In this document: piece by piece, positions 22,895-45,715 of the stretch
How the letters are laid out: each line of letters begins with the position of its first letter
Numbering within the stretch: the stretch's first letter is position 1
Source of the DNA: Pseudidiomarina aquimaris
GTDB taxonomy: Bacteria; Pseudomonadota; Gammaproteobacteria; Enterobacterales; Alteromonadaceae
DNA length: 64,000 nt
Assembly: GCF_003987395.1 (NCBI RefSeq)
Contig: NZ_PIPT01000004.1
Location: 1-64,000, forward strand
Reading direction: 5' to 3'
The notes under the pieces: model-generated
Told to the model about the DNA's origin: nothing
Databases searched by the model: none
What the model saw: only the letters and a program-made list of their open reading frames with translations
Made by a program: the position numbers and the translations under genes

Positions 22895-25008
<2,114 letters not shown>

Positions 25009-28347: not shown

Positions 28348-28376
28348 TTGAAAACAACTGCGGCTTTGTGTATTAT
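28348..28376 (+). promoter_or_regulatory. Sigma-70 promoter of the aryl polyene operon
   Basis: TTGAAA (28348-28353), a 17-bp spacer and TATTAT (28371-28376) match the sigma-70 consensus at 10 of 12 positions with ideal spacing. The promoter lies 43 bp before the apeC ATG. It is the only good promoter I see before the tightly packed genes to 45043. Confidence 0.75.
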
Positions 28377-28418
28377 CCCGCTTCTTTTTTTGCGCACTCA
28401 ATCAGTCGAAATCTGCCC

Positions 28419-29087
28419 ATGCAACTATTCACCAAGGCCAGTGCCTTAGCGTTACAAGACGATGTCGTTGAGAACGATCCGCTACGAGCATTGCCGGCAG
28501 GAACGCGGCGGCGTTTGAGCCCCTATGCGAAGTTGCTCGTTCGTGTGGTTTACCAACTGCTCGATGCGCATCCACAGATTCAAACAGCACCTATCGTATT
28601 GGCCACGCAACACGGCGACTTACACCGTACCGTTCGACTCTTACATGACCTTGCGACTGAACAACCGCTGTCACCCACGCAGTTCAGCTTATCGGTGAAC
28701 AATGCCGCTTTAGGCCAACTCAGCATCTTGCTTGAGAACACCGCGGCGATGACAACTGTTGCTGCTGGCGCCGATTCTTTTGCCATGGGGTGGTTAGAGG
28801 CTGGCCTGCAGTTGCAGCAGGCATCTGAAGTTTTGTTTATCTACGTTGATGAGCCGCCGCCCGAGCCCTATACCGAACATGCCGAATTACCTGAACAGGC
28901 TGTTGCTATGGCGGTATTGCTGAGTGCAAATCAGGGCCACACTGTTACCTTTGAGCGGGCCCCATCGTCTTCACCAACGGGACTGCTAGAGCCCCTTTTG
29001 CAACTGCATGAACTCATTGCTGAGCGCCGCAGCGGCAAGGTTCAAGTCCAAGGTGAACAAGCGCTCTGGAGTTGGCATGTTGGCTAA
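28419..29087 (+). CDS. apeC: ApeC-like ketosynthase chain-length-factor subunit
   Basis: A 222-residue beta-ketoacyl-synthase-like protein (Ketoacyl-synt_2 type), about half the length of a normal ketosynthase. It has no active-site Cys: the corresponding region reads TVAAGADSFAMG. In described aryl polyene systems ApeC is the inactive partner of ketosynthase ApeO and sets chain length. The start is ATG 28419; an earlier ATG at 28368 lies within the promoter. It overlaps the next gene by 11 bp and opens the operon, as in the E. coli-type order. Confidence 0.8.
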   Translation: MQLFTKASALALQDDVVENDPLRALPAGTRRRLSPYAKLLVRVVYQLLDAHPQIQTAPIVLATQHGDLHRTVRLLHDLATEQPLSPTQFSLSVNNAALGQLSILLENTAAMTTVAAGADSFAMGWLEAGLQLQQASEVLFIYVDEPPPEPYTEHAELPEQAVAMAVLLSANQGHTVTFERAPSSSPTGLLEPLLQLHELIAERRSGKVQVQGEQALWSWHVG

Positions 29088-29874
29088 GGTACTACAATTT
29101 TGCAATCACACATGGCGGCGCTTCGCCACAGGGCTGTGTTTTGCGGTGTTTGGTTTAGGTGGTCTGGTAATGTCACTCACCGCTCTCCCATTATTAAAAC
29201 TGCGGGCCTACGGCGAACCGGAAAAACAACAGCAAATGGCAAAGGCCATGGTGCAACGCACTTTTCGCTTTTTCATTGGCTTTATGCGCTTTACTGGGGT
29301 ATTCAACTTTGCTTTTCCAGCTCGTGAACAATTGCAACACTGTCGCGGACAAGTGATCATTGCGAACCATCCATGCTTGATTGACATTGTCGCGTTAATT
29401 TCATTTGTGCCGAATGCCGACTGTGTGGTGAAAGCCCATCTTTGGCGTAATCCTTTTATGCGAGGTGTGATAAAATCGTCGGGTTATATTAGTAATGGTG
29501 ACCCCGAGGGCTTGATCATCGATTGTGAACGCTCCCTCGCCCAAGGCAATAATTTAATTATTTTCCCGGAGGGAACGCGGACGGAGCCGGGTAAGCCTTT
29601 TCGCTTTCAGCGCGGCCCAGCGAATTTAGCACTGCGGACGCAAAATGACATGATGGCTCTACGTATCTGCTGCGACCCTGTCACCCTAATAAAGAATGAG
29701 CCTTGGTACTGTGCACCGCCAAAGAAACCAACATTGACCATTGAGTTTCTGCGCGCTGTACCGACCACCAGCTATCAAACAGAACAACCGAGCATCGCCG
29801 CGCGCCAACTTACACGGGATCTCGAAGCTTATTACAACAAGGTACTCGAAAGTAATGGAAAATATAAAACTTGA
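29077..29874 (+). CDS. apeD: ApeD-like 1-acyl-glycerol-3-phosphate acyltransferase family protein
   Basis: A 265-residue membrane-associated acyltransferase of the PlsC family. An N-terminal hydrophobic anchor (about 20-40) is followed by the catalytic ANHPCLIDIVAL (NHxxxxD motif) and FPEGTRTEPGKPFRF (EGTR motif). In APE clusters it is thought to attach an acyl or polyene chain to a lipid carrier. The start ATG 29077 lies inside the end of apeC, and the end overlaps the first ACP gene by 20 bp. Confidence 0.82.
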   Translation: MLAKVLQFCNHTWRRFATGLCFAVFGLGGLVMSLTALPLLKLRAYGEPEKQQQMAKAMVQRTFRFFIGFMRFTGVFNFAFPAREQLQHCRGQVIIANHPCLIDIVALISFVPNADCVVKAHLWRNPFMRGVIKSSGYISNGDPEGLIIDCERSLAQGNNLIIFPEGTRTEPGKPFRFQRGPANLALRTQNDMMALRICCDPVTLIKNEPWYCAPPKKPTLTIEFLRAVPTTSYQTEQPSIAARQLTRDLEAYYNKVLESNGKYKT

Positions 29875-30121
29875 GCTGAAGACGTTAATTATCGAAGCAC
29901 TCGATTTGGAAGATGTTCGCGTGACCGATATTGACGATAGTGCACCGCTGTTTAGCGATGAAGACAATGGCCTCGATCTTGACTCCATCGATGCACTGGA
30001 ACTTGGGCTCGCCATCAAAAAGAAGTTCGATGTCAAACTTGATGCCAACTCCGCAGACACCAAGAAGCATTTTTATAGTGTAAATACGTTGGCTGAGTTT
30101 ATTGCCAGTCAAAAGGGATAA
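29855..30121 (+). CDS. apeE: Acyl carrier protein ApeE
   Basis: An 88-residue acyl carrier protein. The phosphopantetheine attachment site is Ser44 in GLDLDSIDALEL. Compared with the second ACP it has a longer loop before the serine (SDEDNGLDLDS) and a longer C-terminal helix region, suggesting a distinct partner set. The start ATG 29855 overlaps the acyltransferase gene. Assignment as ApeE (rather than ApeF) rests on gene order. Confidence 0.85.
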   Translation: MENIKLELKTLIIEALDLEDVRVTDIDDSAPLFSDEDNGLDLDSIDALELGLAIKKKFDVKLDANSADTKKHFYSVNTLAEFIASQKG

Positions 30122-30129
30122 GAACGACC

Positions 30130-30384
30130 ATGCAAACCAGAGAAGACGTTTATCAAACGCTTGAACAGATCCTCATGGAGGACTTTGAGATCGATGCTGA
30201 AGAGATTAAGTTAGACGCCAATCTATACCAAGATCTCGATCTCGACAGCATCGATGCAGTAGACCTCGTGGTGAAGTTACGTGAGATCACCGGAAAGAAG
30301 ATCAGTCCAGATGCATTTAAAGCGGTTCGCACCGTCGAAGATGTTGTAGATGAGGTTCTGAAACTCATTCAAGAACCAGCCTAA
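30130..30384 (+). CDS. apeF: Acyl carrier protein ApeF
   Basis: An 84-residue acyl carrier protein with Ser40 in QDLDLDSIDAVDLV as the phosphopantetheine site. It is acidic, four-helix in pattern and close in style to primary-metabolism ACPs. It is the second of two tandem ACPs; the activating enzyme is probably the Sfp-type transferase encoded at the far end of the cluster. Its stop overlaps the next ATG by one base. Confidence 0.85.
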   Translation: MQTREDVYQTLEQILMEDFEIDAEEIKLDANLYQDLDLDSIDAVDLVVKLREITGKKISPDAFKAVRTVEDVVDEVLKLIQEPA

Positions 30385-30935
30385 TGATGCGTGTTTTGCG
30401 TGTCCTGTCATTACTCTGCCTAGCGACCTATCCCTTATGGGTCGCAGGCTTGGTGCATGCAGGTCAAAGCCAACATTTATGGTGGGTACTGTGTTTGTTT
30501 GTGCTACCGCAATTGTGGCTTGCTGACTGGCGACAACCGCGCAGTTATGTGGTCGTTTTTGCCACCTTGGCGGTGCTGATTGTGGCTTGGATTGCCAGTC
30601 CGCAAGAAGCCGCACTGTTTTATCCAGTTTGGATGAACCTTGGCTTTTTTGTCCTCTTTGCTAGCTCACTTTGGCAAAAGCCTGCAATCATCACGCGAAT
30701 CGCGCAGGCAATGGAGGGCGAGCTCCCACCGAGCGGTGTGCGTTATACCGAAAATGTCACCAAAATATGGACGGTATTTTTTCTGATTAATGGCAGCATC
30801 GCATGGTGGACCGCTACCCAAGCAAGCTTGAGCATTTGGACTTGGTACAACGGCGTCATTGCTTATGTACTGATGGCTTCTCTCTTCACTATCGAGCTAG
30901 GTATTCGCTATGTGGTTAAAAAGCGACACCACTAA
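30384..30935 (+). CDS. apeG: ApeG-like integral membrane protein (COG4648 type)
   Basis: A 183-residue membrane protein with about five hydrophobic segments (for example VLRVLSLLCLATYPLWVAGLV at the start). It belongs to a family seen almost only in aryl polyene clusters and has no known catalytic motif. Position between the ACPs and the AMP ligase matches ApeG. The 3' end overlaps the ligase gene by 26 bp. Confidence 0.75.
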   Translation: MMRVLRVLSLLCLATYPLWVAGLVHAGQSQHLWWVLCLFVLPQLWLADWRQPRSYVVVFATLAVLIVAWIASPQEAALFYPVWMNLGFFVLFASSLWQKPAIITRIAQAMEGELPPSGVRYTENVTKIWTVFFLINGSIAWWTATQASLSIWTWYNGVIAYVLMASLFTIELGIRYVVKKRHH

Positions 30936-32232
30936 TTGGTTTTTAGTGCTGCCCCAAAGCGCACCTTGGCAAGAGTTCCAGGCTGATGTTGATGCTGCGC
31001 GACACTGGCTACAGTCGCAAGCGGCACAGCGCTGGCTGTTGTTTGAACCTGATAGTTATCGTTGCGCCGTTTGGTTGTTTGCTTTACTTGCAGAAGACCG
31101 TCAAGCCGTGATGCCACAGAACCAGCAACAAGAGACGTTACGCTTGGTCGCTGAGGAGATTGAAGCGGCGTTACCGGCGCAAATTCCTGAACGCTCGAGT
31201 GAACAAGACGTTCGCCCACTGAGAGGTCCGCTGACGACCCCTCTCACGCTTTTTACATCTGGCTCGAGTGGCACACCACAAGCTATTCAAAAATCTGCAC
31301 GCCAACTCTTTAACGAAGTGCAAACACTTGAGGCGACCTTCGGCGAACGCGTCGGCGATGCTGCGGTGGTCACCACCATTTCTCACCAGCACATCTATGG
31401 GCTGTTGTTCACCCTGCTCTGGCCCATATGTTCAGGTCGTTGTTTAGTTCCTCAGCGAATCGAGTACCTGGAGCAATGGCAGCTTTATCACCAGCAAGCA
31501 GATAATTATTTATTGGTAAGTAGCCCTGCGCACCTCGACCGCTTTACTGAGCTGGAACACCTGCGCGAAGGTAGCGGTGATTTGCGCGCTGTTTTCTCCT
31601 CAGGAGGCCCACTCGCCGCCGCTGTACCTCAGCGTTTTCGAAATGCAGGTTTTCTCGCACCCATCGAGGTATACGGGAGCACCGAAACCGGCGGTATTGG
31701 CTGGCGTCAACGTAACCAAGGTGAACAAGCATTTCAACGCTTTGCAGGTATTAAGCTGACGGTCGATAGCGATAACCTATTACAAGTGCAATCGCCGCAC
31801 TTACCCGGTGAACAGGTTTACACTACCGCCGACAAAGTCGAGTTACTCGATGCGAATGAGTTTAAGGTTTTAGGCCGCGCCGATCGCATTGTGAAGATTG
31901 CCGAAAACCGGGTTTCACTCGCGGAATTAGAACATTTTTGTGAAACGCTGCCCTGGGTACGCCAAGCAAAATGTGTGCTGCTCCATCAGCCACGCAGCGC
32001 GCTCGGTTTGGTCGTGGTGTTAACGACATACGGCCAACAGCTCCTTGCCAGCGAAGGTCGCCTGTCGCTCCGTCGGCGTCTAAGAGAACACCTGCAACAA
32101 CGCTTCGATAAAGTCGTGTTACCGCGCAAATTCCGTTATGTTGAAGCAATACCTTGCAATAGCAGCGGCAAAACAACCTATGCCATGTTGCAAGCACTGT
32201 TTAACACTACCGATGCAGAAGGCGATGTATGA
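30910..32232 (+). CDS. apeH: ApeH-like AMP-dependent aryl/acyl ligase
   Basis: A 440-residue adenylate-forming ligase expected to activate the aryl starter acid with ATP and load it onto an ACP. Motifs are the P-loop LFTSGSSGTPQAIQKS, VYGSTETGGIGWRQ, the hinge GRADRIVKIAENRVSLAELE, and the catalytic lysine in NSSGKTTY near the end. It is shorter than acyl-CoA synthetases (over 500), consistent with ACP-loading ligases of APE clusters. The substrate is inferred from the ammonia-lyase encoded downstream. Confidence 0.85.
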   Translation: MWLKSDTTNWFLVLPQSAPWQEFQADVDAARHWLQSQAAQRWLLFEPDSYRCAVWLFALLAEDRQAVMPQNQQQETLRLVAEEIEAALPAQIPERSSEQDVRPLRGPLTTPLTLFTSGSSGTPQAIQKSARQLFNEVQTLEATFGERVGDAAVVTTISHQHIYGLLFTLLWPICSGRCLVPQRIEYLEQWQLYHQQADNYLLVSSPAHLDRFTELEHLREGSGDLRAVFSSGGPLAAAVPQRFRNAGFLAPIEVYGSTETGGIGWRQRNQGEQAFQRFAGIKLTVDSDNLLQVQSPHLPGEQVYTTADKVELLDANEFKVLGRADRIVKIAENRVSLAELEHFCETLPWVRQAKCVLLHQPRSALGLVVVLTTYGQQLLASEGRLSLRRRLREHLQQRFDKVVLPRKFRYVEAIPCNSSGKTTYAMLQALFNTTDAEGDV

Positions 32233-32594
32233 CAGTTCATTACCCTGAGTTTACGCAACTCTCCGAGAGCATTGATGAAAGCGGTCGTCGCCATTTACGT
32301 GCGCAGTTTGCAGTCACGCCTGACTGCCTGTATCTGCAGGGGCACTTCCCTGAGGCACCGCTGCTCCCCGGCGTAACCCAGCTCGACTGGGCCATTCAAT
32401 TGGCCGCTGACCACTGGCAAACGCCACGCACGGTTCGCACCATCGAAGTTTTAAAGTTTAATGACATGATTTTACCCAAAGCTGAGGTCACGCTTACTTT
32501 AGAGTGGAAACGCGATGATTGCGTCGTGTTTCGTTATCAACATAACGACAAAGCGTACTCCTCTGGGCGCTTAATTTTTAATTCCGCGGCCTAA
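32229..32594 (+). CDS. apeI: ApeI-like 3-hydroxyacyl-ACP dehydratase
   Basis: A 121-residue single-hotdog dehydratase with the FabA/FabZ-like active-site stretch GHFPEAPLLPGVTQLDWAIQ (His in GHFP). In described APE systems ApeI pairs with ApeP to dehydrate the beta-hydroxy intermediate in each elongation cycle. It overlaps the ligase stop by 4 bp (ATGA). Confidence 0.85.
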   Translation: MTVHYPEFTQLSESIDESGRRHLRAQFAVTPDCLYLQGHFPEAPLLPGVTQLDWAIQLAADHWQTPRTVRTIEVLKFNDMILPKAEVTLTLEWKRDDCVVFRYQHNDKAYSSGRLIFNSAA

Positions 32595-32596
32595 TT

Positions 32597-33340
32597 ATGC
32601 GTGCTTGTTTTATTATTCCAATCTACAACCATCATGAAACTATTGCCGCGACAGTCGCGGCGCTCATGCCCTATCAGCTACCGATTTTTATCGTTGATGA
32701 TGGCTCTGATAGCGCAACGAAACAAGTTCTCGCCGAATTAGTTGCGCGCACGCCTTTTTTGCAACTGCACACATTAGCTGAAAATACCGGTAAAGGTGGT
32801 GCGGTGATGGCCGGGCTGGCGCAGGCCCATGCCGCCGGAATGACCCACGGCTTGCAGATTGACGCTGATGGCCAACACGACACGCGGGACATACCTGAAT
32901 TCTGGCAGCAAGCAGAACGGTATCCAGAGGCACTTATTAGCGGCGCCCCGCAATACGATGCATCAATGCCAATGTCGCGCAAAATCGGGCGCAAGATCAC
33001 CCATTTCTGGGTACACATTGAAACACTTTCTCTGCGTGTCAAAGATACCATGTGCGGCTTTCGCGTCTATCCGCTTGAGACGACTTTGGCAACGATAGCC
33101 GAGCACCGTCCGGGGACTCGAATGGATTTTGATATTGAGATCATGGTGCGCATGTATTGGCGCGGAACCCCAATTCGCTTTATCCCCACACAAGTTATTT
33201 ACCCCGAGGGCGGTCGTTCACACTTTCAGGCGTTTGCTGATAATTGGCTTATTTCCAAAATGCATACACGCTTATTCTTTGGTATGTTGCGGCGCGCACC
33301 TCTACTTATCTGGCGTCGCCTGCGTGGGAGTTCAGTATGA
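32597..33340 (+). CDS. Family 2 glycosyltransferase (N-terminal half of ApeJ equivalent)
   Basis: A 247-residue GT-A glycosyltransferase with IIPIYNHHETIAATV, the nucleotide-binding DDGS (FIVDDGSDS), the metal-binding motif region LQIDADGQHD, and the acceptor segment MCGFRVYP. It resembles dolichol-phosphate-mannose-synthase-like GT2 enzymes. In E. coli-type clusters the corresponding ApeJ is, as I recall it, a fused glycosyltransferase-acyltransferase; here the two activities are separate, 4-bp overlapping genes. Likely role: glycosylating the lipid or polyene head. Confidence 0.8.
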   Translation: MRACFIIPIYNHHETIAATVAALMPYQLPIFIVDDGSDSATKQVLAELVARTPFLQLHTLAENTGKGGAVMAGLAQAHAAGMTHGLQIDADGQHDTRDIPEFWQQAERYPEALISGAPQYDASMPMSRKIGRKITHFWVHIETLSLRVKDTMCGFRVYPLETTLATIAEHRPGTRMDFDIEIMVRMYWRGTPIRFIPTQVIYPEGGRSHFQAFADNWLISKMHTRLFFGMLRRAPLLIWRRLRGSSV

Positions 33341-34311
33341 AGCATTGGGCGGCAACTGAAGAACGCGGCAGTTACCTCGGTATTCTGATTGTCCTGCGTG
33401 CCTATAAGTATGGCGGGCATGTACTGATGCGCTTAGTGCTCGCACCGGTCATTTTCTACTTTTTCCTAACCGGCGGGAATGCTCGACGTGCATCATTGGA
33501 CTATTTACGCCGACTCCACAACTTTAGTGGCGACGCTTCGCCGTTTGCTAGCGTACCGACTTGGCGTGACAGTTTGCGCCATTTTTGGCAATTCGGCTTA
33601 GCTTCATTAGAAAAAACCGATGCTTGGATTGGCCGCATTCGTAAACAGCATGTGCAAAACTGCGGCAATACTCATTTCCGTGATCTGGAGCAGCGGCCCG
33701 AGGGCGGGGTGTTGATTGGCAGTCACCTAGGTAATTTAGAAGTTGCCCGCGCAATTGCCAGCAGTAGCTATAGTAAACGCATGAATGTGCTGGTCTTTAC
33801 CGAGCATGCGCAAGCCTTTAACCGCGCGCTACGCGAGTTAAATCCCAATGTCACGGTGGATGTAATTCAGGTAACCAATATCGATATGGGACTGGCCATT
33901 ATGTTGCGCGAGCGCGTCGACCAAGGGGAATTTGTTGTCATTGTCGGCGACCGCACCTCGGTCACCGACCCGAGCCAAAGCGTTCACCATCATTTCCTCG
34001 GTAAACCTGCGCAATTTGCCATTGGCCCTTGGGTTTTGGCGAGTATTCTGGAGTGTCCGGTGTACTTTTTGTTCTGTCTACGCAATAGCACTGGCGCAGG
34101 CTATGATTTGCACTTAGATTTCGTCACTGCGCAACTGCAGTTACCGCGGCGCAGCCGCCAGCAACATATTGATGCTATTTTATCTCAGTACATCGCCAAG
34201 CTAGAGACGTTGTGTCGACACTACCCGTATCAGTGGTTTAATTTTTTCGACTTTTGGCAACAGCAGGAAACCGCAGCAACAACAGAAGGATCAGTAGGTA
34301 ATGCCGATTGA
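33337..34311 (+). CDS. LpxL-family acyltransferase (C-terminal half of ApeJ equivalent)
   Basis: A 324-residue acyltransferase of the HtrB/LpxL lipid A type, with an N-terminal hydrophobic anchor, the HxxxxE-like catalytic motif in GSHLGNLEVAR, and the later GDRTSV segment typical of this family. Start ATG 33337 overlaps the glycosyltransferase stop by 4 bp; an upstream in-frame ATG lies inside that gene and is rejected. Likely function: transferring the polyene acyl group to the outer-membrane lipid acceptor. Confidence 0.8.
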   Translation: MKHWAATEERGSYLGILIVLRAYKYGGHVLMRLVLAPVIFYFFLTGGNARRASLDYLRRLHNFSGDASPFASVPTWRDSLRHFWQFGLASLEKTDAWIGRIRKQHVQNCGNTHFRDLEQRPEGGVLIGSHLGNLEVARAIASSSYSKRMNVLVFTEHAQAFNRALRELNPNVTVDVIQVTNIDMGLAIMLRERVDQGEFVVIVGDRTSVTDPSQSVHHHFLGKPAQFAIGPWVLASILECPVYFLFCLRNSTGAGYDLHLDFVTAQLQLPRRSRQQHIDAILSQYIAKLETLCRHYPYQWFNFFDFWQQQETAATTEGSVGNAD

Positions 34312-35842
34312 AAATGTTCAGTTTGGTGGTAAACGCACGACCATCAACGATATTGTCCGCTTAAGTAAAGGTGAGGCACAAGCCCAGCTCAGCGAAGATC
34401 CAAGCTTGCGCGAGCGCATCGCAGCTGGCACTCGTTTTCTCGATACCCTACTGCGTGAAGATGGCGTTATTTATGGCGTGACAACCGGTTACGGCGATAG
34501 CTGCACGGTGACGGTTCCAACCGAACTGGCGCACGAGCTGCCTATTCATTTAACGCGATTTCATGGCTGTGGCTTAGGTCGGCATTTCGACGCCAGCAGT
34601 GTACGCGCAATCTTAGCGACGCGACTTTGCTCTCTCGCCCAAGGCTACTCAGGGGTAAGCTGGGAACTCCTAGAGCGGTTGGTGGTGATGCTTAACGAAG
34701 GCGTGCTCCCACTCATCCCCGAAGAAGGAAGTGTCGGCGCGAGTGGCGATCTCACTCCGTTATCCTATGTCGCTGGAGCGCTTATTGGCGAACGCGATGT
34801 GCACTTTAACGGCACCACAATGAATAGCAAAGAAGCCTTCGCTAAACTTGACCTACTGCCGCTGCAGTTACGCCCCAAAGAAGGCTTGGCCATCATGAAT
34901 GGTACTGCGGTGATGACCGCGCTTGCATGCCAAGCATGGCATCGTGCCGACTACTTAAGCCGTTTGTCCGCCCGGGTGACGGCACTTGCAAGTATTGCGC
35001 TTGATGGCAACAGTAACCATTTTGACGAACTGCTGTTTGCGGTAAAACCGCATCGCGGTCAGCAAGATGTCGCACGCTGGATCCAGCAAGATATTAATCA
35101 TGTTGAACATCCGCGTAACTCGGATCGACTGCAGGACCGCTATTCTATTCGCTGCGCTCCGCACATTATCGGCGTTTTACGTGATGCGCTACCTTGGTTT
35201 GCTGAAACCATCGAAAATGAACTCAACAGCGCCAATGACAACCCCATAATTGATGGTATTGGCGAACACGTACTCCATGGCGGGCATTTCTACGGTGGGC
35301 ACATCGCGATGGTAATGGACAGCATGAAAACCGCCGTTGCCAATCTGGCTGATTTACATGATCGCCAAATGGCGCTGCTCATGGACACTAAAATGAATAA
35401 TGGCCTGCCGGCGAATTTGTCGGCGGCAAGCGGTCCGCGCGCCAGTATTAACCACGGTTTCAAAGCTGTGCAAATCGGCTGCTCGGCATGGACCGCCGAA
35501 GCCCTTAAGCTGACTATGCCAGCAAGTGTCTTTTCCCGCTCTACCGAGTGCCATAATCAAGACAAAGTAAGCATGGGCACTATTGCCGCACGCGATTGTC
35601 TACGTGTCTTAGAGCTGACTGAGCAAGTACTCGTTGCGACACTCCTAGCAGCCTATCAAGGGGTGCAGTTGCGCCGCCAAGCGACGCCTGAGCTTCGTCA
35701 ACCAGCTGCCGTGGTAGAAGCTATGTTAGCCGATATAGCTAATGACTTCGCCTTGGTCGACGAAGATCGCCCGTTGGAAGCTGAGTTACGTTACTGGCTG
35801 GAGCAAACAAGACAGCAACGCTGGGAACTCTACAAGGATTAA
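34301..35842 (+). CDS. Aromatic amino acid ammonia-lyase (HAL/TAL family)
   Basis: A 513-residue MIO enzyme that removes ammonia from an aromatic amino acid to give an aryl-acrylate. Ala147-Ser148-Gly149 in GSVGASGDLTPL form the MIO cofactor. Tyr58 (IYGVTTGYGD) is the expected catalytic base. Other active-site parts are NGTAVMT, YSIRCAPHIIG and NSANDNPI. The selectivity pair aligned with His89-Leu90 of Rhodobacter TAL is Phe87-His88, neither the TAL pair nor the Ser-His of histidase. Placement in the operon supports making the polyene starter (cinnamate or coumarate) rather than histidine breakdown. No other hut genes are present. Confidence 0.85.
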   Translation: MPIENVQFGGKRTTINDIVRLSKGEAQAQLSEDPSLRERIAAGTRFLDTLLREDGVIYGVTTGYGDSCTVTVPTELAHELPIHLTRFHGCGLGRHFDASSVRAILATRLCSLAQGYSGVSWELLERLVVMLNEGVLPLIPEEGSVGASGDLTPLSYVAGALIGERDVHFNGTTMNSKEAFAKLDLLPLQLRPKEGLAIMNGTAVMTALACQAWHRADYLSRLSARVTALASIALDGNSNHFDELLFAVKPHRGQQDVARWIQQDINHVEHPRNSDRLQDRYSIRCAPHIIGVLRDALPWFAETIENELNSANDNPIIDGIGEHVLHGGHFYGGHIAMVMDSMKTAVANLADLHDRQMALLMDTKMNNGLPANLSAASGPRASINHGFKAVQIGCSAWTAEALKLTMPASVFSRSTECHNQDKVSMGTIAARDCLRVLELTEQVLVATLLAAYQGVQLRRQATPELRQPAAVVEAMLADIANDFALVDEDRPLEAELRYWLEQTRQQRWELYKD

Positions 35843-35844
35843 GC

Positions 35845-36255
35845 ATGTTTGAAGCGCGTTTAAAGATTAACGTCCCGTTTTTTGATGTCGACGCCATGCA
35901 CGTGGTTTGGCATGGCCATTATGTGAAGTACATGGAAATGGCCCGCAGCGAATTGCTGCGCCAATTTGATTATGACTACCCCACCATGAAAGCCAACGGC
36001 CATATTTGGCCCATCGTCGATTTGCGCGTCAAATATGTGGCGTCTGCGCGTTACGGCCAAGATATAGAAGTCCTCGCAAAACTTACCGAGTGGGAACACC
36101 GCTTACGCATTGATTACGTGATTCGTTGTTGCGACACACAAAAAGTGCTGACGAAAGCGACCAGTATCCAAGTAGCAGTGGCGATCGACACAGAAGAGAT
36201 GTTGTTTGAGTCACCGGATATCTTGTTCGAGAAATTGGGAGTAACGCGCTCATGA
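35845..36255 (+). CDS. apeK: ApeK-like hotdog thioesterase
   Basis: A 136-residue 4-hydroxybenzoyl-CoA/YbgC-type thioesterase. The active-site region is VPFFDVDAMHVVWHGHYVKY, with the family's conserved Asp (FDVDAM), followed by MARSELL. It probably releases or edits ACP-bound chains during polyene synthesis. It lies 2 bp after the ammonia-lyase and overlaps the LolA-like gene by 4 bp. Confidence 0.85.
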   Translation: MFEARLKINVPFFDVDAMHVVWHGHYVKYMEMARSELLRQFDYDYPTMKANGHIWPIVDLRVKYVASARYGQDIEVLAKLTEWEHRLRIDYVIRCCDTQKVLTKATSIQVAVAIDTEEMLFESPDILFEKLGVTRS

Positions 36256-36827
36256 TGGCGTCACAGGCGCTAAGGATGTTGCTTTCTCTCTTACTGAGCG
36301 CTGTTTTGCTCGGCTCTGAAGCACGCACGGAAGAACCCCAATTAGCGCCCGAGGTAGTTGAATTTCTCCAACAGCAACAACAGCCTCTACCGTTCGTTGT
36401 AGAGTTCGAGCAAAAGCGTACCATTCAAGGTTTACCACGACCGTTGCTGAGCTCTGGTCAATTGACCATTGCCGCCGACGAAGTGATTTGGCATACCCAA
36501 CAACCCCTTGATCAGAAGCTCGTCATCAACGCAACGGGGATCCACAGCGATGAACAACCGAAGCTGCGTGGTAGCGAAGTTATCGCCGAATTGTTACTCG
36601 CTGTGCTGCAAGGCGACGCTAATGCTATTGCGCGCAACTTCGCCACGGAGCTACAAGAGGAATGCTTGGTTTTGACCCCAAAACTACAGCAGCTTCAGCA
36701 ATTTGTCGCCAGCATTGAAAGTTGTGGCGTGGCGGCCATCGAAACCATTCGCTTAGTCGAGCAACAAGGGAATCAAAGCGTGATTAGCTTCCAACCAAAG
36801 GCTGCAGTCGGTGTTGAGGCTCAATAG
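36252..36827 (+). CDS. apeL: ApeL-like LolA-type lipoprotein carrier protein
   Basis: A 191-residue exported protein with a signal peptide (cleavage near residue 25) and a LolA-like fold: the segment VEFEQKRTIQGLPRPLLSSGQLTI resembles the start of LolA and the DUF1439-type carriers found in APE clusters. Likely role: carrying the hydrophobic polyene lipid across the periplasm after the MMPL exporter. It overlaps its neighbours by 4 and 17 bp. Confidence 0.8.
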   Translation: MMASQALRMLLSLLLSAVLLGSEARTEEPQLAPEVVEFLQQQQQPLPFVVEFEQKRTIQGLPRPLLSSGQLTIAADEVIWHTQQPLDQKLVINATGIHSDEQPKLRGSEVIAELLLAVLQGDANAIARNFATELQEECLVLTPKLQQLQQFVASIESCGVAAIETIRLVEQQGNQSVISFQPKAAVGVEAQ

Positions 36828-39093: not shown

Positions 39094-39107
39094 AGGGAAT
39101 TCGTCGC

Positions 39108-40364
39108 GTGTCTCAAGTTCAACCCCATTACGACGTGATCATAATTGGCGCTGGCCCCTCAGGTGCCGCGGCTGCGTCGCTTCTCGCGCAAGCAAATAAA
39201 AATGTCTTAGTACTCGAAAGACAACATTTTCCACGCTTTTCGATCGGCGAAAGCCTGTTACCTCAGTGCATGATGTACTTAGAAGAAGCAGGTTTGCGCG
39301 AAGTAGTTGAGGCGAATGCTCAAGAGCTCGGTTTTCAGTTTAAAGACGGTGCCGCATTTTATCGGGACGGTGAACATACTTTGTTTGATTTTACCGCTAA
39401 GTCATCAAATGGCCCAGGCACGACCTACCAAGTGAAGCGCGAAAAATTTGATCAATTACTGATTGAACAAGCCCGTAACTACGGTGCAGAGGTGCGCCAT
39501 GGCATGCAAGTGGAGCAAGTGACGCTCGCCAACGACGGCGGCCCGACGAGTCTTAGCGTTCGCAACCTCGAAGATGACAGCGAACAGCAGTTGAGTTGCG
39601 ATTTCTTGCTTGATGCGAGCGGATTTGGCCGCGTGCTACCGCGACTTCTCGATCTTGAGTACCCATCGGATTTTCCGGTTCGCCAGGCAGCCTTTTGTCA
39701 TGTCAAAACCGACCTTGCGCACCCCAAGTTTGATCGCAATAAAATTCTTATCACGGTGCATCCCACCAACCCTGAAATATGGTTTTGGTTGATCCCCTTT
39801 GCCGATGGCACGGCCAGCTTGGGCGTGGTCGGCAGCGAGCGCTTCTTCACTGACGATAATGGTGCTGCGGCGGCGCTGTGGAACAAAGTCAATGATGAGC
39901 CCTACTTGCTTGCGGTGTTGGGCGACTATCAAGTGATTCGCGATGAGCAATTGATCACTGGCTATTCGGCGAACGTCAAACAACTTCACGGTGATGGCTT
40001 TGCCCTCCTTGGCAACGCTGGTGAGTTTCTCGACCCAGTCTTTTCCTCCGGTGTCACGATTGCACTGAAGTCTGCAGTGATGGCGGTACCGCTCGTTTTG
40101 CGTGAGTTACAGGGCGAGACAGTCGATTGGCAAAATGAATACAGTGTCCCCTTACGTAAGGGCATCGATACCTTCCGAACCTACGTTAAAGGCTGGTACG
40201 ATTGCTCATTCCAAGACGTGATTTTTTACCCCCACCAACAAGAGACGATTAAGCAAATGATTTGCTCAATTTTAGCAGGCTATGCGTGGGACTTAACCAA
40301 CCCGTTTGTGCGAGAAAGTGAACGGCGTTTGCGAGTAGTGACAGAATTATGCCAAGAATCTTAA
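39108..40364 (+). CDS. FAD-dependent oxidoreductase, flavin-halogenase-like
   Basis: A 418-residue flavoprotein of the tryptophan/phenol halogenase superfamily. It shows the FAD loop IIGAGPSGAAAASLL (about 12-26), FPRFSIGESLLP, Lys79 in FQFKDGAAF (aligned with the catalytic lysine region of phenolic halogenases), and W225-F-W-L-I-P230, which fits the WxWxIP halogenase motif. A brominated or chlorinated aryl head, as in xanthomonadin, is therefore possible. Some relatives are hydroxylases or reductases, so the reaction is open. The start is GTG 39108. Confidence 0.75.
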   Translation: MSQVQPHYDVIIIGAGPSGAAAASLLAQANKNVLVLERQHFPRFSIGESLLPQCMMYLEEAGLREVVEANAQELGFQFKDGAAFYRDGEHTLFDFTAKSSNGPGTTYQVKREKFDQLLIEQARNYGAEVRHGMQVEQVTLANDGGPTSLSVRNLEDDSEQQLSCDFLLDASGFGRVLPRLLDLEYPSDFPVRQAAFCHVKTDLAHPKFDRNKILITVHPTNPEIWFWLIPFADGTASLGVVGSERFFTDDNGAAAALWNKVNDEPYLLAVLGDYQVIRDEQLITGYSANVKQLHGDGFALLGNAGEFLDPVFSSGVTIALKSAVMAVPLVLRELQGETVDWQNEYSVPLRKGIDTFRTYVKGWYDCSFQDVIFYPHQQETIKQMICSILAGYAWDLTNPFVRESERRLRVVTELCQES

Positions 40365-40939
40365 TAGCGCTTGCCACACTTATGTTCCTCGTCGGCTGCC
40401 AAGCAACGCCGTCGCGTGATCCCCTGTGGACGCCCGTCAGCGACGCTGCCGGCTTCACTCTCGCGACCAGCTGGCCAGGCCCCGCACAGCAAGAGCTGGT
40501 ATGGATCGAATGGTCGCACCCAGAGCAAGGCCAGCACAGCTTGCAAGTAAGCAGTGCGCGCAGTGCGAAAGGCCTCACCATGGTCGGCTTAAGCCCATTA
40601 GGCCAAGAACTATGGCGCGCGGCACTCGATGCTTCGGGACGCTTCAGTTCTACAGGTGTTGCCCCCTTCGATGAGCCACGCTTGGTCAAGCAAATGCTGG
40701 CAACCATGCAGTTAGTGAATTGGCCCATTGCGGATCTGCAGCCGCGACTCCATGGCGCAAAACTGCTAGCGACCGAACAAGGGCGAATGATACACAGCGC
40801 CAGCCAAGAGCTTTTGTGGGAGTTAACACAGCAGGGGAATACCCTAGTGGTTGAACACCACGCCTTCAACTACCGCATTGAGCTACGTCAACTGCAATTG
40901 GAAATGCTAGAATTCCCCACGCAGCAAGGGGGGCAATAA
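40349..40939 (+). CDS. apeN: ApeN-like DUF3261 lipoprotein
   Basis: A 196-residue lipoprotein with lipobox LVGC (about residues 13-16) and the DUF3261 pattern found in APE clusters. The mature domain is beta-rich with a WIEWSHPEQGQHSLQVS segment. Probably an outer-membrane acceptor for the polyene lipid, a LolB-like role by analogy. It overlaps the flavoprotein gene by 16 bp and precedes apeO by 3 bp. Confidence 0.78.
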   Translation: MPRILIALATLMFLVGCQATPSRDPLWTPVSDAAGFTLATSWPGPAQQELVWIEWSHPEQGQHSLQVSSARSAKGLTMVGLSPLGQELWRAALDASGRFSSTGVAPFDEPRLVKQMLATMQLVNWPIADLQPRLHGAKLLATEQGRMIHSASQELLWELTQQGNTLVVEHHAFNYRIELRQLQLEMLEFPTQQGGQ

Positions 40940-40942
40940 TTC

Positions 40943-42154
40943 ATGTATTTAAACCAACTCGGCGTTGTTTGCGCACTCGGCACGACCACCACAGAAGTTT
41001 GGCAAAACGCCGTAGCTGGAAGTCAGCAGGGTATGCAGACCAGCGACCTGCGTTTAGTTGACGCAAGTCCCCTTATCGTTGGGCAAGTGGCTGATGAGGC
41101 TTTGCCGACGTTAGCTGAGCAGGCTGCGCTTTTTCAAACCCGTAACAATCGCCTTGCGGCCGCCGCACTAGCCAACATACGCAGTGATATTGAGCGCTGT
41201 AAAGCCCGTTTTGGCGCCGATCGTATTGGTGTCATTGTCGGTACCAGCACTTCGGGCATTGCGGAGGGTGAGCAAGCATTAAAGCATTACACGCAGCACC
41301 ATGCTCTACCGGCTAGCTTCAATTATCGGATGCAAGAAATGACAGCGCCCGCGGATTTCATCGCCGCATATTGCGACGTCAGCGGGCCTCGTTACAGTAT
41401 TTCCATTGCCTGCTCGTCGAGCGCCCGAGCTCTGATGAGCGCCCGCGAATTACTCCAAAGTAACCTTGTTGATGCAGTAATTGTCGGCGGTGTCGACTCT
41501 CTTTGCCGTCTGACTCTTAATGGCTTCCGCGCACTCGAATCGACTTCATCAGGTTTATGCCAACCCTTTAGCAAGCAACGCGATGGGATCAATATTGGCG
41601 AAGGCGCAGCATTCTTCGTAGCAACTCGTGAAGCGCTTGAACCACAGCAACCGCAAGTTTATTTGAGCGGTGCCGGGCATGCGTCTGATGCGCATCACAT
41701 GACAGCTCCAGAACCGCATGGCCGCGGCGCACAGTTAGCTATCTCGGCGGCGCTTAAAGAAGCCAAGCTCAGCCCTGAGGCGATTGACTATATCAATTTA
41801 CATGGCACCGGGACGCCACTGAACGATGCAATGGAAGCCTATGCCTTAACCGAGCTTGGCCTGCAGCATAGTCTCGCTAGTTCAACCAAACCTATGACTG
41901 GGCACACGCTTGGCGCAGCCGGCGCCCTCGAAGCGGCGCTCTGTTGGCTCACCTTACAAGCAGCAGATGGACAACTCCCGCGTCATTGCTATGCGGGCGA
42001 CTACGATGCCGACATTGCCCCACTTTCACTGGTGACTGCAGAGCGGGGTCTCAGCCACCGCGCCAAGCATTGTTTGAGCAACTCGTTTGCCTTTGGCGGT
42101 AACAACGTGGCGCTCGTTTTAAGTCGTAACGAGGCAGGAGCAAATCAGTCATGA
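40943..42154 (+). CDS. apeO: ApeO-like beta-ketoacyl synthase
   Basis: A 403-residue condensing enzyme with an intact Cys157-His287-His321 triad (IACSSSARA, LHGTGTPLND, MTGHTLGAAGA). In known systems ApeO forms a heterodimer with the inactive ApeC and extends the polyene with malonyl-ACP. The N-terminus is slightly short compared with FabF. It overlaps apeP by 4 bp. Confidence 0.9.
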   Translation: MYLNQLGVVCALGTTTTEVWQNAVAGSQQGMQTSDLRLVDASPLIVGQVADEALPTLAEQAALFQTRNNRLAAAALANIRSDIERCKARFGADRIGVIVGTSTSGIAEGEQALKHYTQHHALPASFNYRMQEMTAPADFIAAYCDVSGPRYSISIACSSSARALMSARELLQSNLVDAVIVGGVDSLCRLTLNGFRALESTSSGLCQPFSKQRDGINIGEGAAFFVATREALEPQQPQVYLSGAGHASDAHHMTAPEPHGRGAQLAISAALKEAKLSPEAIDYINLHGTGTPLNDAMEAYALTELGLQHSLASSTKPMTGHTLGAAGALEAALCWLTLQAADGQLPRHCYAGDYDADIAPLSLVTAERGLSHRAKHCLSNSFAFGGNNVALVLSRNEAGANQS

Positions 42155-42609
42155 CATTATTGACAGACCTAATAAAACATCGCCCGCCTATGCTCTTAAT
42201 TGACCGCTATATTAGCGGTGATAGTGGCACGGCTTCAGCACACTGCGAAGTAACGGTCACCAACGATAACCTTTATTACCGTGAGGAGCTTGGCGGACTT
42301 CCTGCTCATGTGGGTATCGAACTCATGGCACAAACGATTGCCGCCGCTGCAGGGTATCGCAATCGTGGTGCTGGCGAAGACATCAAGATTGGTTTCTTGT
42401 TAGGATCACGCAAGTATCGATGCTCAGTTGACTGCTTCGCGCTCGGAGAAACCTACGCTATTCATGTTGCCGAAATCCATGCCGAAAGCTCAGGTTTGAG
42501 CGTTTTCGAATGTGAAATAAGGCACCTAGATACGCCGATTGCGAGCGCCAAAATCAATGTTTTCCAGCCGCCTGATGAGGCCGCTTTTATAGAGGATACC
42601 TATGCGTAA
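42151..42609 (+). CDS. apeP: ApeP-like hotdog dehydratase
   Basis: A 152-residue FabA/FabZ-like dehydratase with LPAHVGIELMAQTIAAAAGY as the active-site helix. It starts with RPPMLLIDRYISGD, similar to FabZ. It is the expected partner of ApeI for removal of water after each ketoreduction. It overlaps apeO by 4 bp and apeQ by 8 bp. Confidence 0.87.
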   Translation: MTLLTDLIKHRPPMLLIDRYISGDSGTASAHCEVTVTNDNLYYREELGGLPAHVGIELMAQTIAAAAGYRNRGAGEDIKIGFLLGSRKYRCSVDCFALGETYAIHVAEIHAESSGLSVFECEIRHLDTPIASAKINVFQPPDEAAFIEDTYA

Positions 42610-43330
42610 ACGTGTACTTGTAACCGGTTCTAGCAAAGGAATAGGTAAAGCTATCGCGCTAAAATTAGCGCAGCAAGGGTTCGATCTTGCGATCCATTGC
42701 CGCAGCGATCGCAGCGCTGCCGAGCAGGTCTGCAAAGAAATCCAAGCACTCGGCCAAGAGGCCAGTTTAGTACAATTTGATGTGGCGGATCGCGAGGCTT
42801 GCCGGAACGCGATTGAAGCAGACATTGAGACGCATGGTGCGTACTACGGTGCGGTCTGCAATGCTGGTATTACCCGCGATGGTGCGTTTCCGGCACTCAC
42901 AGACGACGACTGGGATAGTGTTATTCATACCAACCTCGATGGCTTTTATAACGTGCTACTGCCCCTAACGATGCCAATGATTCGTCTGCGCCAAGGCGGC
43001 CGCATTGTTACCATTGCTTCAGTATCAGGGATTGCTGGTAATCGCGGACAAGTGAACTATAGTGCCTCAAAAGCAGGTCTGATTGGTGCCACCAAAGCGC
43101 TCGCTTTAGAGCTTGCGAAACGCAAGATAACCGTCAACTGTGTGGCCCCCGGACTCATTGAAACCGAGATGACCGACCACTTAGAGCATCAAGAGCATAT
43201 TCTCTCGATGATTCCGATGCAGCGGGCGGGTAAACCGGAAGAAGTGGCAGGTCTAGTTGGGTACTTGTTTGAGGATTCGGCGGCGTACATTACGCGCCAA
43301 GTTTTTTCAGTTAATGGTGGACTAGTCTAA
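42602..43330 (+). CDS. apeQ: ApeQ-like 3-oxoacyl-ACP reductase (FabG family)
   Basis: A 242-residue short-chain dehydrogenase with GSSKGIGKAIAL (NADPH loop), CNAGITRDG, the catalytic Ser and YSASKAG (YxxxK) pair, and APGLIETEMT. It reduces the beta-keto group in polyene elongation. It overlaps apeP by 8 bp, and its stop overlaps the apeR ATG by one base. Confidence 0.9.
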   Translation: MRKRVLVTGSSKGIGKAIALKLAQQGFDLAIHCRSDRSAAEQVCKEIQALGQEASLVQFDVADREACRNAIEADIETHGAYYGAVCNAGITRDGAFPALTDDDWDSVIHTNLDGFYNVLLPLTMPMIRLRQGGRIVTIASVSGIAGNRGQVNYSASKAGLIGATKALALELAKRKITVNCVAPGLIETEMTDHLEHQEHILSMIPMQRAGKPEEVAGLVGYLFEDSAAYITRQVFSVNGGLV

Positions 43331-44559
43331 TGAAACGGGTCGTTGTGACAGGGATGGGGTGTATTACCGCTTTTGGTGATAACTGGCAAGATTTCCGTAA
43401 GCGCTTATTAAACGGCGAAAATGCCGTCGTTCGTATGCCCGAGTGGGACGCCTTCGATGGCTTGAACACTCGACTTGCAGCGCCAATTCAACCGCCATTC
43501 CAAAGGCCGAAGCATTACTCACGCAAAGATGTCCGTTCGATGAGCACCGTTAGTATCATGGCCACCCGCGCTAGCGAGCTGGCACTCGAAAACGCCGGTC
43601 TGCTCGACGAGCCAAGTATCAAAGACGGTCGCTGCGGTGTTGCCTACGGTTCATCAACCGGCTCAACAGACGAAATGATCGTGTTTGGTAATATGTTAGC
43701 CAACAAGGATATGTCTGGCGTTAACGCCACTACCTACATCAAGAGTATGGGGCACACCACGGCAGTAAACGTCGGCGTATTTTTCGGCTTAAAAGGCCGT
43801 ATGTACACCACCAGCTCAGCCTGCACCTCTGCTTCTCAAGCCATCGGTTATGCTTATGAAGCGATTAAATATGGCCAGCAGCAGATGATGGTGGCCGGTG
43901 GTGCCGAAGCACTCTGTCCGTCAGAAGCCGTGGTATTCGATACGCTTTACGCAACCAGCACTCGCAATGACGACCCGAAGCTCACGCCCCGCCCATTTGA
44001 CCGCGACCGCGACGGCTTGGTCATTGGCGAGGGCGCCGGTACCTTTATACTTGAAGAACTCGAGCATGCAAAAGCCCGTGGCGCAACCATCTACGCAGAG
44101 CTTGTGGGGTTCGGTACCAATACCGATGGCGCCCATGTTACGCAACCCACGGCAGCAACCATGGAAGTCGCTATCCGGCATGCCCTCAAGGATGCCCAGC
44201 TTGAGCCAAAGACCATCGGTTATGTCAACGCGCACGGCACTGCCACTGACCGCGGTGATATCGCCGAGTCGCAAGCGACCTCTGCCGTGTTTGGTGCAAC
44301 TATGCCAATTAGTTCATTGAAGAGTTACCTTGGTCATACGCTAGGCGCTTGCGGCGCAATCGAAGCATGGGCAAGTATCGAAATGATGCGTGAGGGATGG
44401 TTTGCGCCAACCGTAAACCTGAACAACATCGACGCAGAGTGTGGTGAGCTTGACTATATTGTCGGCACGACTAAAAAATTGGATACTGACTATATTATGA
44501 GCAATAATTTTGCCTTTGGCGGTATCAACACCTCGCTTGTTTTTAAGCGTTGGGATTAA
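43330..44559 (+). CDS. apeR: ApeR-like beta-ketoacyl synthase (FabF family)
   Basis: A 409-residue ketosynthase with Cys165-His302-His336 (SSACTSASQA, NAHGTATDRGD, LGHTLGACGA) and the GGAEALCPSE segment. In described clusters ApeR is the homodimeric ketosynthase thought to perform the first condensation on the aryl starter. It closes the elongation set. Confidence 0.9.
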   Translation: MKRVVVTGMGCITAFGDNWQDFRKRLLNGENAVVRMPEWDAFDGLNTRLAAPIQPPFQRPKHYSRKDVRSMSTVSIMATRASELALENAGLLDEPSIKDGRCGVAYGSSTGSTDEMIVFGNMLANKDMSGVNATTYIKSMGHTTAVNVGVFFGLKGRMYTTSSACTSASQAIGYAYEAIKYGQQQMMVAGGAEALCPSEAVVFDTLYATSTRNDDPKLTPRPFDRDRDGLVIGEGAGTFILEELEHAKARGATIYAELVGFGTNTDGAHVTQPTAATMEVAIRHALKDAQLEPKTIGYVNAHGTATDRGDIAESQATSAVFGATMPISSLKSYLGHTLGACGAIEAWASIEMMREGWFAPTVNLNNIDAECGELDYIVGTTKKLDTDYIMSNNFAFGGINTSLVFKRWD

Positions 44560-44608
44560 TTCAAGACAGCATGTCTTTTTGGAACTAAAAAAATTAAAAG
44601 GAATTCAT

Positions 44609-45043
44609 ATGAAGCTCAAGCTCGTTTTTGCACTGCTTATAACTATTGTATTTATCCAACCGGCGCAGGCTCGCGAAGATATTCTAACTTTGCCGTTGGA
44701 TGAATTACTTGCTTCTGAAGACGCTAAAAAAGCGCTATTGGACGTGCCAATTTTCTTCGCTGGGCAGCCTCACCCGGCAGTAAAATCAAGTAAAGAGGTT
44801 ACCACCAGCCGCAAAACTAACGCCTTCAATAAGAGCGACGAAGAAGCGTGTCGTTGGGTGATGTTATCAGCGCTGAAAGTATTGCAAGATGCCGCACAAA
44901 AAGGTGGTTATGACGCTGTAGCGAACATCAAATCTAATTACGACCACAATGAATTCGCCAGTAGCACCGAGTATCAATGCGGTGCAGGTACGTTTATTGC
45001 AGGCGCCGCACTCAAAGCTGACTTAGTTCGTTTCGAGGACTAG
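44609..45043 (+). CDS. Small exported protein closing the APE operon
   Basis: A 144-residue exported protein with a signal peptide (PAQA, cleavage after about residue 21). Its C-terminal half (LKVLQDAAQKGGYDAVANIKSNY, then YQCGAGTFIAGAALKADL) resembles the YbjQ/YdgH-type small periplasmic domain. Relatives in APE clusters are sometimes labelled excinuclease ATPase subunit, but nothing here is an ATPase. Two cysteines may form a disulfide. AAAGGAATT precedes the ATG; the reading frame extends upstream to 44510 inside apeR but that start is rejected. It overlaps the convergent PPTase by 21 bp. Confidence 0.7.
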   Translation: MKLKLVFALLITIVFIQPAQAREDILTLPLDELLASEDAKKALLDVPIFFAGQPHPAVKSSKEVTTSRKTNAFNKSDEEACRWVMLSALKVLQDAAQKGGYDAVANIKSNYDHNEFASSTEYQCGAGTFIAGAALKADLVRFED

Positions 45044-45715
45044 CTCTGACGCTAATGTTTGTGTTGCAGTGGTGGTCACTCGCCACCACTGTGCTGCCGT
45101 TGGCGATACGCTGTAACAACACAACATGTGTTGCTGTTCAGTATGAAACAAACCACTTTCTGCATAGCTTCCAAAAGCTTCGCGTAGCGTCGCTAATAGC
45201 TTTCCCTGTTGTGCCTTTGTCACTGCTTCAGCCAACGTCCAACGCTGATAAAACGTCTTTAAATCTTCAACCTTAACATGCTGCATAAAGCCGTCACTGA
45301 ACTCGTTGACGAGCTCCGCTTGGCGTTTGCGGGGCTGCATCAGTTCAATATCAACCCCCAAAGCTTCAACATCACCGAACGCAACCATGACCGCATCGGT
45401 TTTGTGACTAATCGAGCAGGCAACCTCTACGTTCGCAATAGTTAGACACGGAGCCCCATTACTCTGGCGACTGATTACCACCGCATCCGGCGCTACATCA
45501 TTCACTCGGCAAACTAACCACCGCAAGAGCCCACGGCCGACTTGGTACTGCACTTGCCGAGCTTGACTGGTATAGCTTTGCGCCTGTGTGCGCTCAGCGG
45601 CCGTTAACCACTGCGTCAACGTCTTGGCAAGCTGTTCTATGACAAATCCATGGGCGATATAAAGCAAAGTTATCCTCGTCGGTTTAGTACTTGTCGCAAT
45701 GGCAATGGAGTGCAA
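45023..45715 (-). CDS. Sfp-type 4'-phosphopantetheinyl transferase
   Basis: A 230-residue transferase that attaches phosphopantetheine from CoA to carrier proteins. It has the three Sfp motifs: CSISHKTDAVMVAF, LGVDIELM, and FYQRWTLAEAVTKAQQGKL (WxxxEAxxKxxGK-like). The likely substrates are ACPs ApeE and ApeF. It is encoded convergent to the operon, overlapping the last gene by 21 bp, and 59 bp divergent from the LysR gene. Confidence 0.87.
   Translation of the reverse strand: MHSIAIATSTKPTRITLLYIAHGFVIEQLAKTLTQWLTAAERTQAQSYTSQARQVQYQVGRGLLRWLVCRVNDVAPDAVVISRQSNGAPCLTIANVEVACSISHKTDAVMVAFGDVEALGVDIELMQPRKRQAELVNEFSDGFMQHVKVEDLKTFYQRWTLAEAVTKAQQGKLLATLREAFGSYAESGLFHTEQQHMLCCYSVSPTAAQWWRVTTTATQTLASELVLETN

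Follow-up and report, generated by a model that had tools for sequence, protein, structure and literature searches.

Which aromatic acid starts the pigment encoded by the aryl polyene (APE) gene cluster of Pseudidiomarina aquimaris? The window analyzed here, 64,000 nucleotides at positions 1 to 64,000 of contig NZ_PIPT01000004.1 (assembly GCF_003987395.1; home genome, 2.8 Mb), contains 19 plus-strand genes in apeC-to-apeR order, from the apeC start codon (ATG at 28419) to the apeR stop codon (44559). Among them are an ammonia-lyase of the 4-methylideneimidazole-5-one (MIO) type and a halogenase-like flavoprotein, which an earlier note on this DNA had regarded as two genes added to a canonical order. 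The locus is in fact a fine representative of a common subtype, and a few residues of the starter ligase ApeH suggest, at the level of sequence, which of two cluster types a locus belongs to. It is a complete pigment cluster of a widespread type, probably directing synthesis of a yellow pigment from tyrosine rather than hydroxybenzoate.

The ammonia-lyase

The lyase gene (34301 to 35842, plus strand) is flanked by the second half of the split apeJ and by apeK. Its product, a MIO aromatic amino acid ammonia-lyase by its PF00221 match (539 bits) and GASGDL motif, is a predicted tyrosine ammonia-lyase (TAL). The motifs [FY]HGCG, NQDKVS, and GASGDL are present in all 54 lyases of this kind, including that of the window (here called APE type). 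Motif 2 of all 54 has Gln (NQDKVS) where histidases have Glu; Gln is the residue of both TAL and phenylalanine ammonia-lyase (PAL) (PMC3992019). Together with the ApeH residues described below, this Gln makes tyrosine-derived 4-coumarate, formed through the lyase, the probable starter of the pigment, and it supports the earlier prediction that the starter is produced locally from an aromatic amino acid.

It is quite improbable that the enzyme is instead a histidine or phenylalanine ammonia-lyase supplying a urocanate- or cinnamate-derived starter. Histidine ammonia-lyase (HAL) models gave the top NCBIfam scores for the window lyase, yet these were below cut-off (404.9 versus 539.15 for hutH), and Gln occupies the histidase-specific position in 54/54 sequences. 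The home genome also encodes a separate histidase with LSHAAG and NQEDH motifs, which passed the hutH cut-off as a positive control; the possibility that the cluster lyase is the histidase of this genome was thereby ruled out.

Motif 1 tells against a tyrosine substrate. His is expected first in TAL, and the APE-type lyases have Phe-His or Tyr-His (54/54), to our knowledge matching no HAL, PAL, TAL, or FlxA motif, so that Phe or some other amino acid may be the substrate. The motif 1 rule has a proven exception in FlxA, an assayed TAL with HAL-like residues (PMC3992019). The window lyase does not reach the FlxA model NF053541 (329 bits versus a cut-off of 700).

Distribution of the gene arrangement

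APE-type lyases were found in 7 of 26 genomes of the genus (own genome included), and the flavoprotein was found in 6 of 23 congeners tested, the same six that have the lyase. The order of the 19 genes is identical in all seven lyase-bearing clusters of the genus, although one (L038) ends inside apeR at a contig end; apeA and a START-domain gene that precede apeC in the window were not seen in all seven. Judged by the lyase, the nearest named relative among the matches listed is Pseudidiomarina homiensis (92%). In a class sample of 185 genomes (own genome included), nine had a lyase of ≥57% identity, and all other matches were ≤39%. The lyase adjoins apeK within an ape cluster in the eight other genomes, one of which (L051) is rearranged, and four of the eight have the flavoprotein. 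The same order recurs in Pseudoalteromonas Bsw20308, in P. shioyasakiensis (where the flavoprotein is annotated as tryptophan 7-halogenase and two genes match in two pieces), and in Acinetobacter baumannii VB31459, with apeH and apeI fused. Recurrence of the 19-gene order in other genera excludes chance.

The ApeC family PF13723 marks 86/369 class genomes, 136/295 order genomes, and, with a stricter limit than in the other two counts, 85/398 phylum genomes. Seventy regions and then 40 more were fetched, picked to spread over genera rather than at random. The first 70 yielded 55 complete clusters found by apeC alone, of which 33 had the lyase in the locus, 17 the flavoprotein, 25 ApeB, and 15 both lyase and flavoprotein. 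The second 40 yielded 26 complete clusters (16 with lyase and 13 with lyase and flavoprotein). The working set comprised 76 complete clusters, counted from 97 rows (the window and 96 loci); its proportions with lyase (50/76) and with both genes (30/76) run high because 21 of the 76 include loci fetched for the lyase or the flavoprotein, and the 55 clusters found by apeC alone give the lower counts stated above. In addition, the best 80 of at least 563 named lyase loci were examined, some of which are cut at contig ends.

With 33 of these 55 clusters carrying the lyase and 15 carrying both genes, the arrangement of the window is one of the common layouts, that of Escherichia coli CFT073, which has neither gene, being another; the description of the lyase and flavoprotein as additions to a canonical order is not supported. 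Recurrence in the genus, the class sample, and the named loci ruled out rare insertion of the two genes. A literature search, largely outside which lay subscription papers, returned no paper describing either a lyase or this flavoprotein in ape clusters like those of E. coli and Acinetobacter; the available portions of PMC9966250, PMC11573776, and PMC11596576 have no bearing on either gene.

ApeH residues associated with the lyase

The gene apeH (30910 to 32232, plus strand; PF00501) encodes the predicted aryl acid:acyl carrier protein ligase that activates the starter. Thirteen ape proteins (C, D, E, F, G, H, I, K, M, O, P, Q, and R; apeJ, apeL, and apeN were left out) were aligned across the 76 clusters, and alignment columns differing in residue frequency by >0.8 between lyase-positive and lyase-negative clusters occurred in ApeH only. 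Gly262 was present in 50/50 lyase-positive versus 1/26 lyase-negative clusters, as was Leu or Ile at position 166, and Ile162 was present in 46/50 versus 2/26. Lyase-negative ApeH proteins have Thr at position 166 in 23/26 clusters and Ile, Val, or Ala at position 262 in 21/26. ApeH of the window, with I162, L166, and G262, is of the lyase type. The three positions fall in the motifs HQHIYGLLF and YGSTETGG, and motifs of this type border the acyl pocket in the enzyme superfamily of ApeH. Gly262 would make room for a longer acid.

The association extended to further loci. Gly262 was present in 73/73 named lyase loci with a scored ApeH, from the best 80 of at least 563. The second 40 loci, several of which share a genus with the first set, gave 35 usable ApeH sequences, with Gly in 19/19 carrying a lyase in the locus and 3/16 without one. 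In one of these three exceptions (G943), an unlinked APE-type lyase was found on a contig (C22; L292) other than that of the ape cluster, as the ApeH residues had suggested. With that cluster (L272) scored as lyase positive for its unlinked copy, here and in the pair tests, Gly262 occurred in 70/70 lyase-positive and 3/41 lyase-negative loci of the combined 111 (38/41 fit). Whole-genome searches covered every lyase-negative row except E. coli CFT073 (40 of 41) and found no APE-type lyase, the best match scoring 360 bits versus 832 for G943.

Phylogenetically independent pairs gave a consistent direction. With a tree of five other ape proteins, six pairs changed the same way, none the opposite way, and two were unchanged (P = 0.031); with an ApeH tree built without the pocket motifs, the counts were seven, zero, and two (P = 0.016). 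An earlier tree of 74 rows, with two rows left out, gave three, zero, and one, too few for a test. These P values serve as guides, because some rows and genera recur between sets and the first set was the one that yielded the code.

Such coupled change bears on the alternative that the starter is still 4-hydroxybenzoate, the lyase serving a second product (an ester group or a free hydroxycinnamate) and the residues in ApeH reflecting something else. That starter is the one proposed for the E. coli cluster (PMC8253772), and A. baumannii ApeH accepted it in vitro (PMC8041823). The alternative is nevertheless unlikely, given that, among 13 ape proteins, lyase-linked columns are confined to the starter ligase, that they change repeatedly with the lyase, and that flexirubin provides a precedent for TAL acting with a 4-coumarate ligase (PMC3992019).

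Several observations weigh against a 4-coumarate starter read from ApeH. The ApeH of the A. baumannii cluster examined here has the lyase-type residues (I-L-G), so a pocket of this kind does not exclude 4-hydroxybenzoate. The placement of positions 162, 166, and 262 in the pocket derives from the motifs in which they lie; among solved structures, ApeH matched distant superfamily relatives only. Three genomes, G125 (L090), G852 (L267), and G901 (L258), have the Gly code, and no APE-type lyase was found in any of them; the lyase-like matches in G852 and G901 carry histidase signatures. The NCBIfam 4-coumarate--CoA ligase model does not separate the two ApeH types, since 11/11 sequences of both types matched it below the cut-off (71 to 119 bits). 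Finally, nearest-neighbor sorting by lyase was correct for 65 to 70 of 75 or 76 sequences in the other ape proteins and for 72/76 in ApeH; the partial sorting by the other proteins is due to kinship. The ApeH code is new and is the most useful result of this analysis.

The flavoprotein, possible halogenation, and ApeB

The flavoprotein gene (39108 to 40364, plus strand; PF04820, 93.5 bits) is located between apeM and apeN. The motifs GxGxxG, WxWxIP, and FxxPxxSxG and a conserved Lys form a halogenase signature, and all four are present in the window protein. Among 40 relatives, GxGxxG was found in 39, WxWxIP in 40, and FxxPxxSxG in 38 (two being truncated). A structure model (mean predicted local distance difference test score, 87) was compared with solved structures using Foldseek, which ranked the uncharacterized Cytophaga hutchinsonii protein 3nix first, followed by ChlB4, PltA, Mpy16, RadH, and Bmp2. 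PltA, Mpy16, Bmp2, and ChlB4 act on carrier-bound substrates, which would suit a carrier-bound polyene as the substrate of the flavoprotein. Halogenation by this enzyme is about as likely as not.

That the lyase route operates and the flavoprotein instead acts on the head group or polyene as a hydroxylase or oxidase, or serves in redox protection, is a serious possibility falling somewhat short of even. The nearest solved relative by score is 3nix (316 bits versus ≤127 bits for halogenases), and the arcuflavin cluster has a halogenase gene, arcA, and yields a pigment without halogen, C41H52O4 (PMC3949708), making halogenation plausible but unproven here. The Lys motif as searched was also found in 35/40 relatives only. 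Against a nonhalogenating enzyme, the halogenase motifs are largely conserved, and Foldseek ranks 7 to 39 (33 chains after 3nix) are all halogenases, with 4-hydroxybenzoate hydroxylases starting at rank 42. Set, like arcuflavin, against halogenation is Lysobacter, which makes a nonbrominated pigment and lacks a halogenase gene, a gene that Xanthomonas clusters possess (PMC3691225).

Absence of the methyltransferase ApeB, claimed earlier, was confirmed within window positions 20001 to 52000, where tblastn with E. coli ApeB found no match (the rest of the home genome was not searched for ApeB); whole-genome searches of six congeners found none at an E value of 1e-30. The flavoprotein is present in 58 of the 80 named lyase loci, immediately following apeM in 44 and elsewhere in 14. 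ApeB was found in 0/44 of the former, flanks of 10 kb being covered, and in 13/14 of the latter. Two layouts can therefore be distinguished, one in the apeM-apeN slot without ApeB and the other, in Vibrionaceae, elsewhere with ApeB. Both would suit an enzyme that tailors the head group.

A strict exclusion between flavoprotein and ApeB was weakened by these co-occurring loci (13/80, all Vibrionaceae by title), by a whole-genome check, and by independent pairs. By locus, the 76 clusters include 4 with both genes, 31 with the flavoprotein alone, 23 with ApeB alone, and 18 with neither, in fetched regions that stopped 2.6 kb past apeC; the flavoprotein adjoins ApeB beyond apeC in L118, L120, L121, and L122. 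Of 74 whole genomes, 35 had the flavoprotein and 32 a near full-length ApeB, with 8 having both (Fisher P = 0.001). Independent pairs gave no support for exclusion. Both this and the Vibrionaceae loci count against the pathway proposed below.

The flavoprotein is not always linked to the cluster. An APE-type copy lies far from the ape genes of the same genome in L043 (G036), G477, G508, and G606, and in L044 (G024) it is represented only by short separate pieces, as if decayed, approximately 1 Mb from an ApeB-bearing ape cluster. In genome G079 (contig C19, 83713 to 84873), a less closely related halogenase-like gene (209 bits with A2) adjoins a lyase-bearing ape cluster without an APE-type flavoprotein.

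Proposed pathway

In the pathway considered most probable, the lyase would deaminate L-tyrosine to 4-coumarate, and ApeH, its acyl pocket opened by Gly262 (with Ile162 and Leu166), would activate this acid and load it onto ApeE. Elongation with malonyl units by ApeC/ApeO, ApeQ, and ApeI/ApeP would yield the polyene, the first double bond of which would come from tyrosine. The FAD enzyme may halogenate the phenol ring, perhaps while it is carrier bound, in place of the methylation by ApeB of the E. coli type. Once released by ApeK, ApeD, and ApeJ, which would also join it to a lipid, the chain would be carried to the outer membrane by ApeL, ApeM, and ApeN.

A broader proposal, which we put just short of an even chance, is that ape clusters comprise two classes by starter, one using 4-coumarate derived from tyrosine and the other 4-hydroxybenzoate derived from chorismate, with the class written in ApeH positions 162, 166, and 262 and switched repeatedly with loss or gain of the lyase. 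In that case, pigments of Acinetobacter and of many marine gammaproteobacteria would have been modeled with the wrong starter, and pigments of clusters with the flavoprotein in the apeM-apeN slot would be halogenated instead of methylated.

Gene content and boundaries of the cluster

The gene families agree in profile scans with the E. coli ape scheme (PMC8253772) and support the earlier identification of an APE cluster, with a ketosynthase and chain-length factor (ApeO/ApeC), two acyl carrier proteins (ACPs), ApeH, ApeI/ApeP, ApeQ, and an exporter (ApeL/M/N). All cluster genes listed here, and the small gene that follows them, are on the plus strand. The cluster extends upstream of apeC, where the earlier note had begun it, to apeA (27269 to 27673), for a small lipoprotein with 41% identity to ApeA of E. 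coli CFT073, and to a START-domain gene (27674 to 28330; PF01852, 1.6e-8) at the position of E. coli apeB. The latter was found in the window and L035 to L038 only, among 97 rows scanned, and is therefore apparently specific to part of the genus.

The first genes encode the chain-length-factor-like ApeC (28419 to 29087; PF13723, 169 bits), the acyltransferase ApeD (29077 to 29874; PF01553), the ACPs ApeE (29855 to 30121; NF006617 above cut-off), the starter carrier by analogy, and ApeF (30130 to 30384; NF003757 above cut-off), and ApeG (30384 to 30935), which has no family match and 34% identity to the E. coli apeG slot. apeH is followed by the dehydratase subunit gene apeI (32229 to 32594; PF22818, ApeI-like) and by the two halves of apeJ, a glycosyltransferase (32597 to 33340; PF00535) and an acyltransferase (33337 to 34311; PF03279), which are fused in E. 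coli as a single gene (L089). Between lyase and flavoprotein lie the genes for the thioesterase ApeK (35845 to 36255; TIGR00051 narrowly above cut-off), the LolA-like chaperone ApeL (36252 to 36827; PF03548), and the exporter ApeM (36811 to 39093; a weak HpnN match and 25% identity to the E. coli apeM slot). The remaining genes encode the DUF3261 protein ApeN (40349 to 40939; PF11659), the ketosynthase ApeO (40943 to 42154; NF006618 above cut-off), the dehydratase subunit ApeP (42151 to 42609; PF22817, ApeP-like), the ketoreductase ApeQ (42602 to 43330; TIGR01831 above cut-off), and a second ketosynthase, ApeR (43330 to 44559; NF006587 above cut-off).

With apeC and apeD start codons chosen by the analyst, 13 of the 18 junctions among the 19 genes are overlaps of 1 to 26 bp and 5 are gaps of 2 to 14 bp, in keeping with the mostly overlapping genes described earlier. 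The 20 same-strand genes then counted are obtained by adding a small gene (44609 to 45043), whose product has a signal-like start and no Pfam match and is called excinuclease in annotated relatives; these lie directly after apeR in A. baumannii (L087) and one gene further on in L086. The end formerly given to the cluster, 45715, is the far edge of a minus-strand 4'-phosphopantetheinyl transferase (PPTase) gene behind it (45023 to 45715; PF22624 narrowly above and PF01648 narrowly below cut-off), whose product likely loads the carrier proteins. Taken as a whole, the interpretation in the earlier note is partly supported. Elsewhere in the window, a cytochrome d1-domain protein with cytochrome c domains (22894 to 24981) is encoded beside a TonB-dependent receptor (20711 to 22894).

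Comparison with known aryl polyene systems

Aryl polyenes reportedly rank with the most widespread secondary metabolites of bacteria (PMC8358021). Flexirubin synthesis in Chitinophaga pinensis (FlxA/FlxY) likewise combines a TAL and 4-coumarate ligase with a type II polyene synthase (PMC3992019), but the window lyase is not FlxA by the model score given above, and no dialkylresorcinol gene was found among the cluster proteins scanned (the genome was not searched for one). Xanthomonadin and arcuflavin are aryl polyenes whose clusters include a halogenase gene (PMC3691225 and PMC3949708); their starter, however, is derived from chorismate by a XanB2-type enzyme (PMC3949708). General scans found no XanB2-type chorismatase among the cluster proteins, no dedicated search having been made. 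Halogenase-like genes near xanthomonadin-like ape genes of the class sample (Xanthomonas itself was not searched) scored approximately 170 to 230 bits with A2, versus at least 430 for the APE type. E. coli CFT073 shares the core genes apeA, apeC to apeI, and apeK to apeR but lacks the lyase and flavoprotein, possesses ApeB, has a fused ApeJ, and carries the ApeH residues L-T-I.

A close studied likeness is found in A. baumannii. Strain VB31459 has the same order, including lyase and FAD oxidoreductase, followed by the gene called excinuclease and a PPTase gene; it differs in the fusion of ApeH and ApeI, in a PPTase gene on the same strand, and in that no apeA or START gene was found in the locus. 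The earlier note had named identical gene content in a cluster with a known product as grounds for abandoning its reading; the gene content is nearly matched here, and no native product was seen. ApeQ and ApeO of L087 match 7CAW and 7F28 of strain CRAB C1 over their full length, the structures of two papers on that strain (PMC8041823 and PMC8358021), and the core enzymes assembled a polyene in vitro from 4-hydroxybenzoate (PMC8041823). The words lyase and halogenase are absent from the main texts of both papers; judging from VB31459, CRAB C1 itself may carry the lyase. 4-Hydroxybenzoate has been used as starter even for a species whose cluster carries a lyase. A short ApeH residue code that tracks the lyase would make it possible to assign a starter class from sequence, and the lyase-flavoprotein gene pair of many marine and some clinical genera becomes a directly testable question of pigment chemistry.

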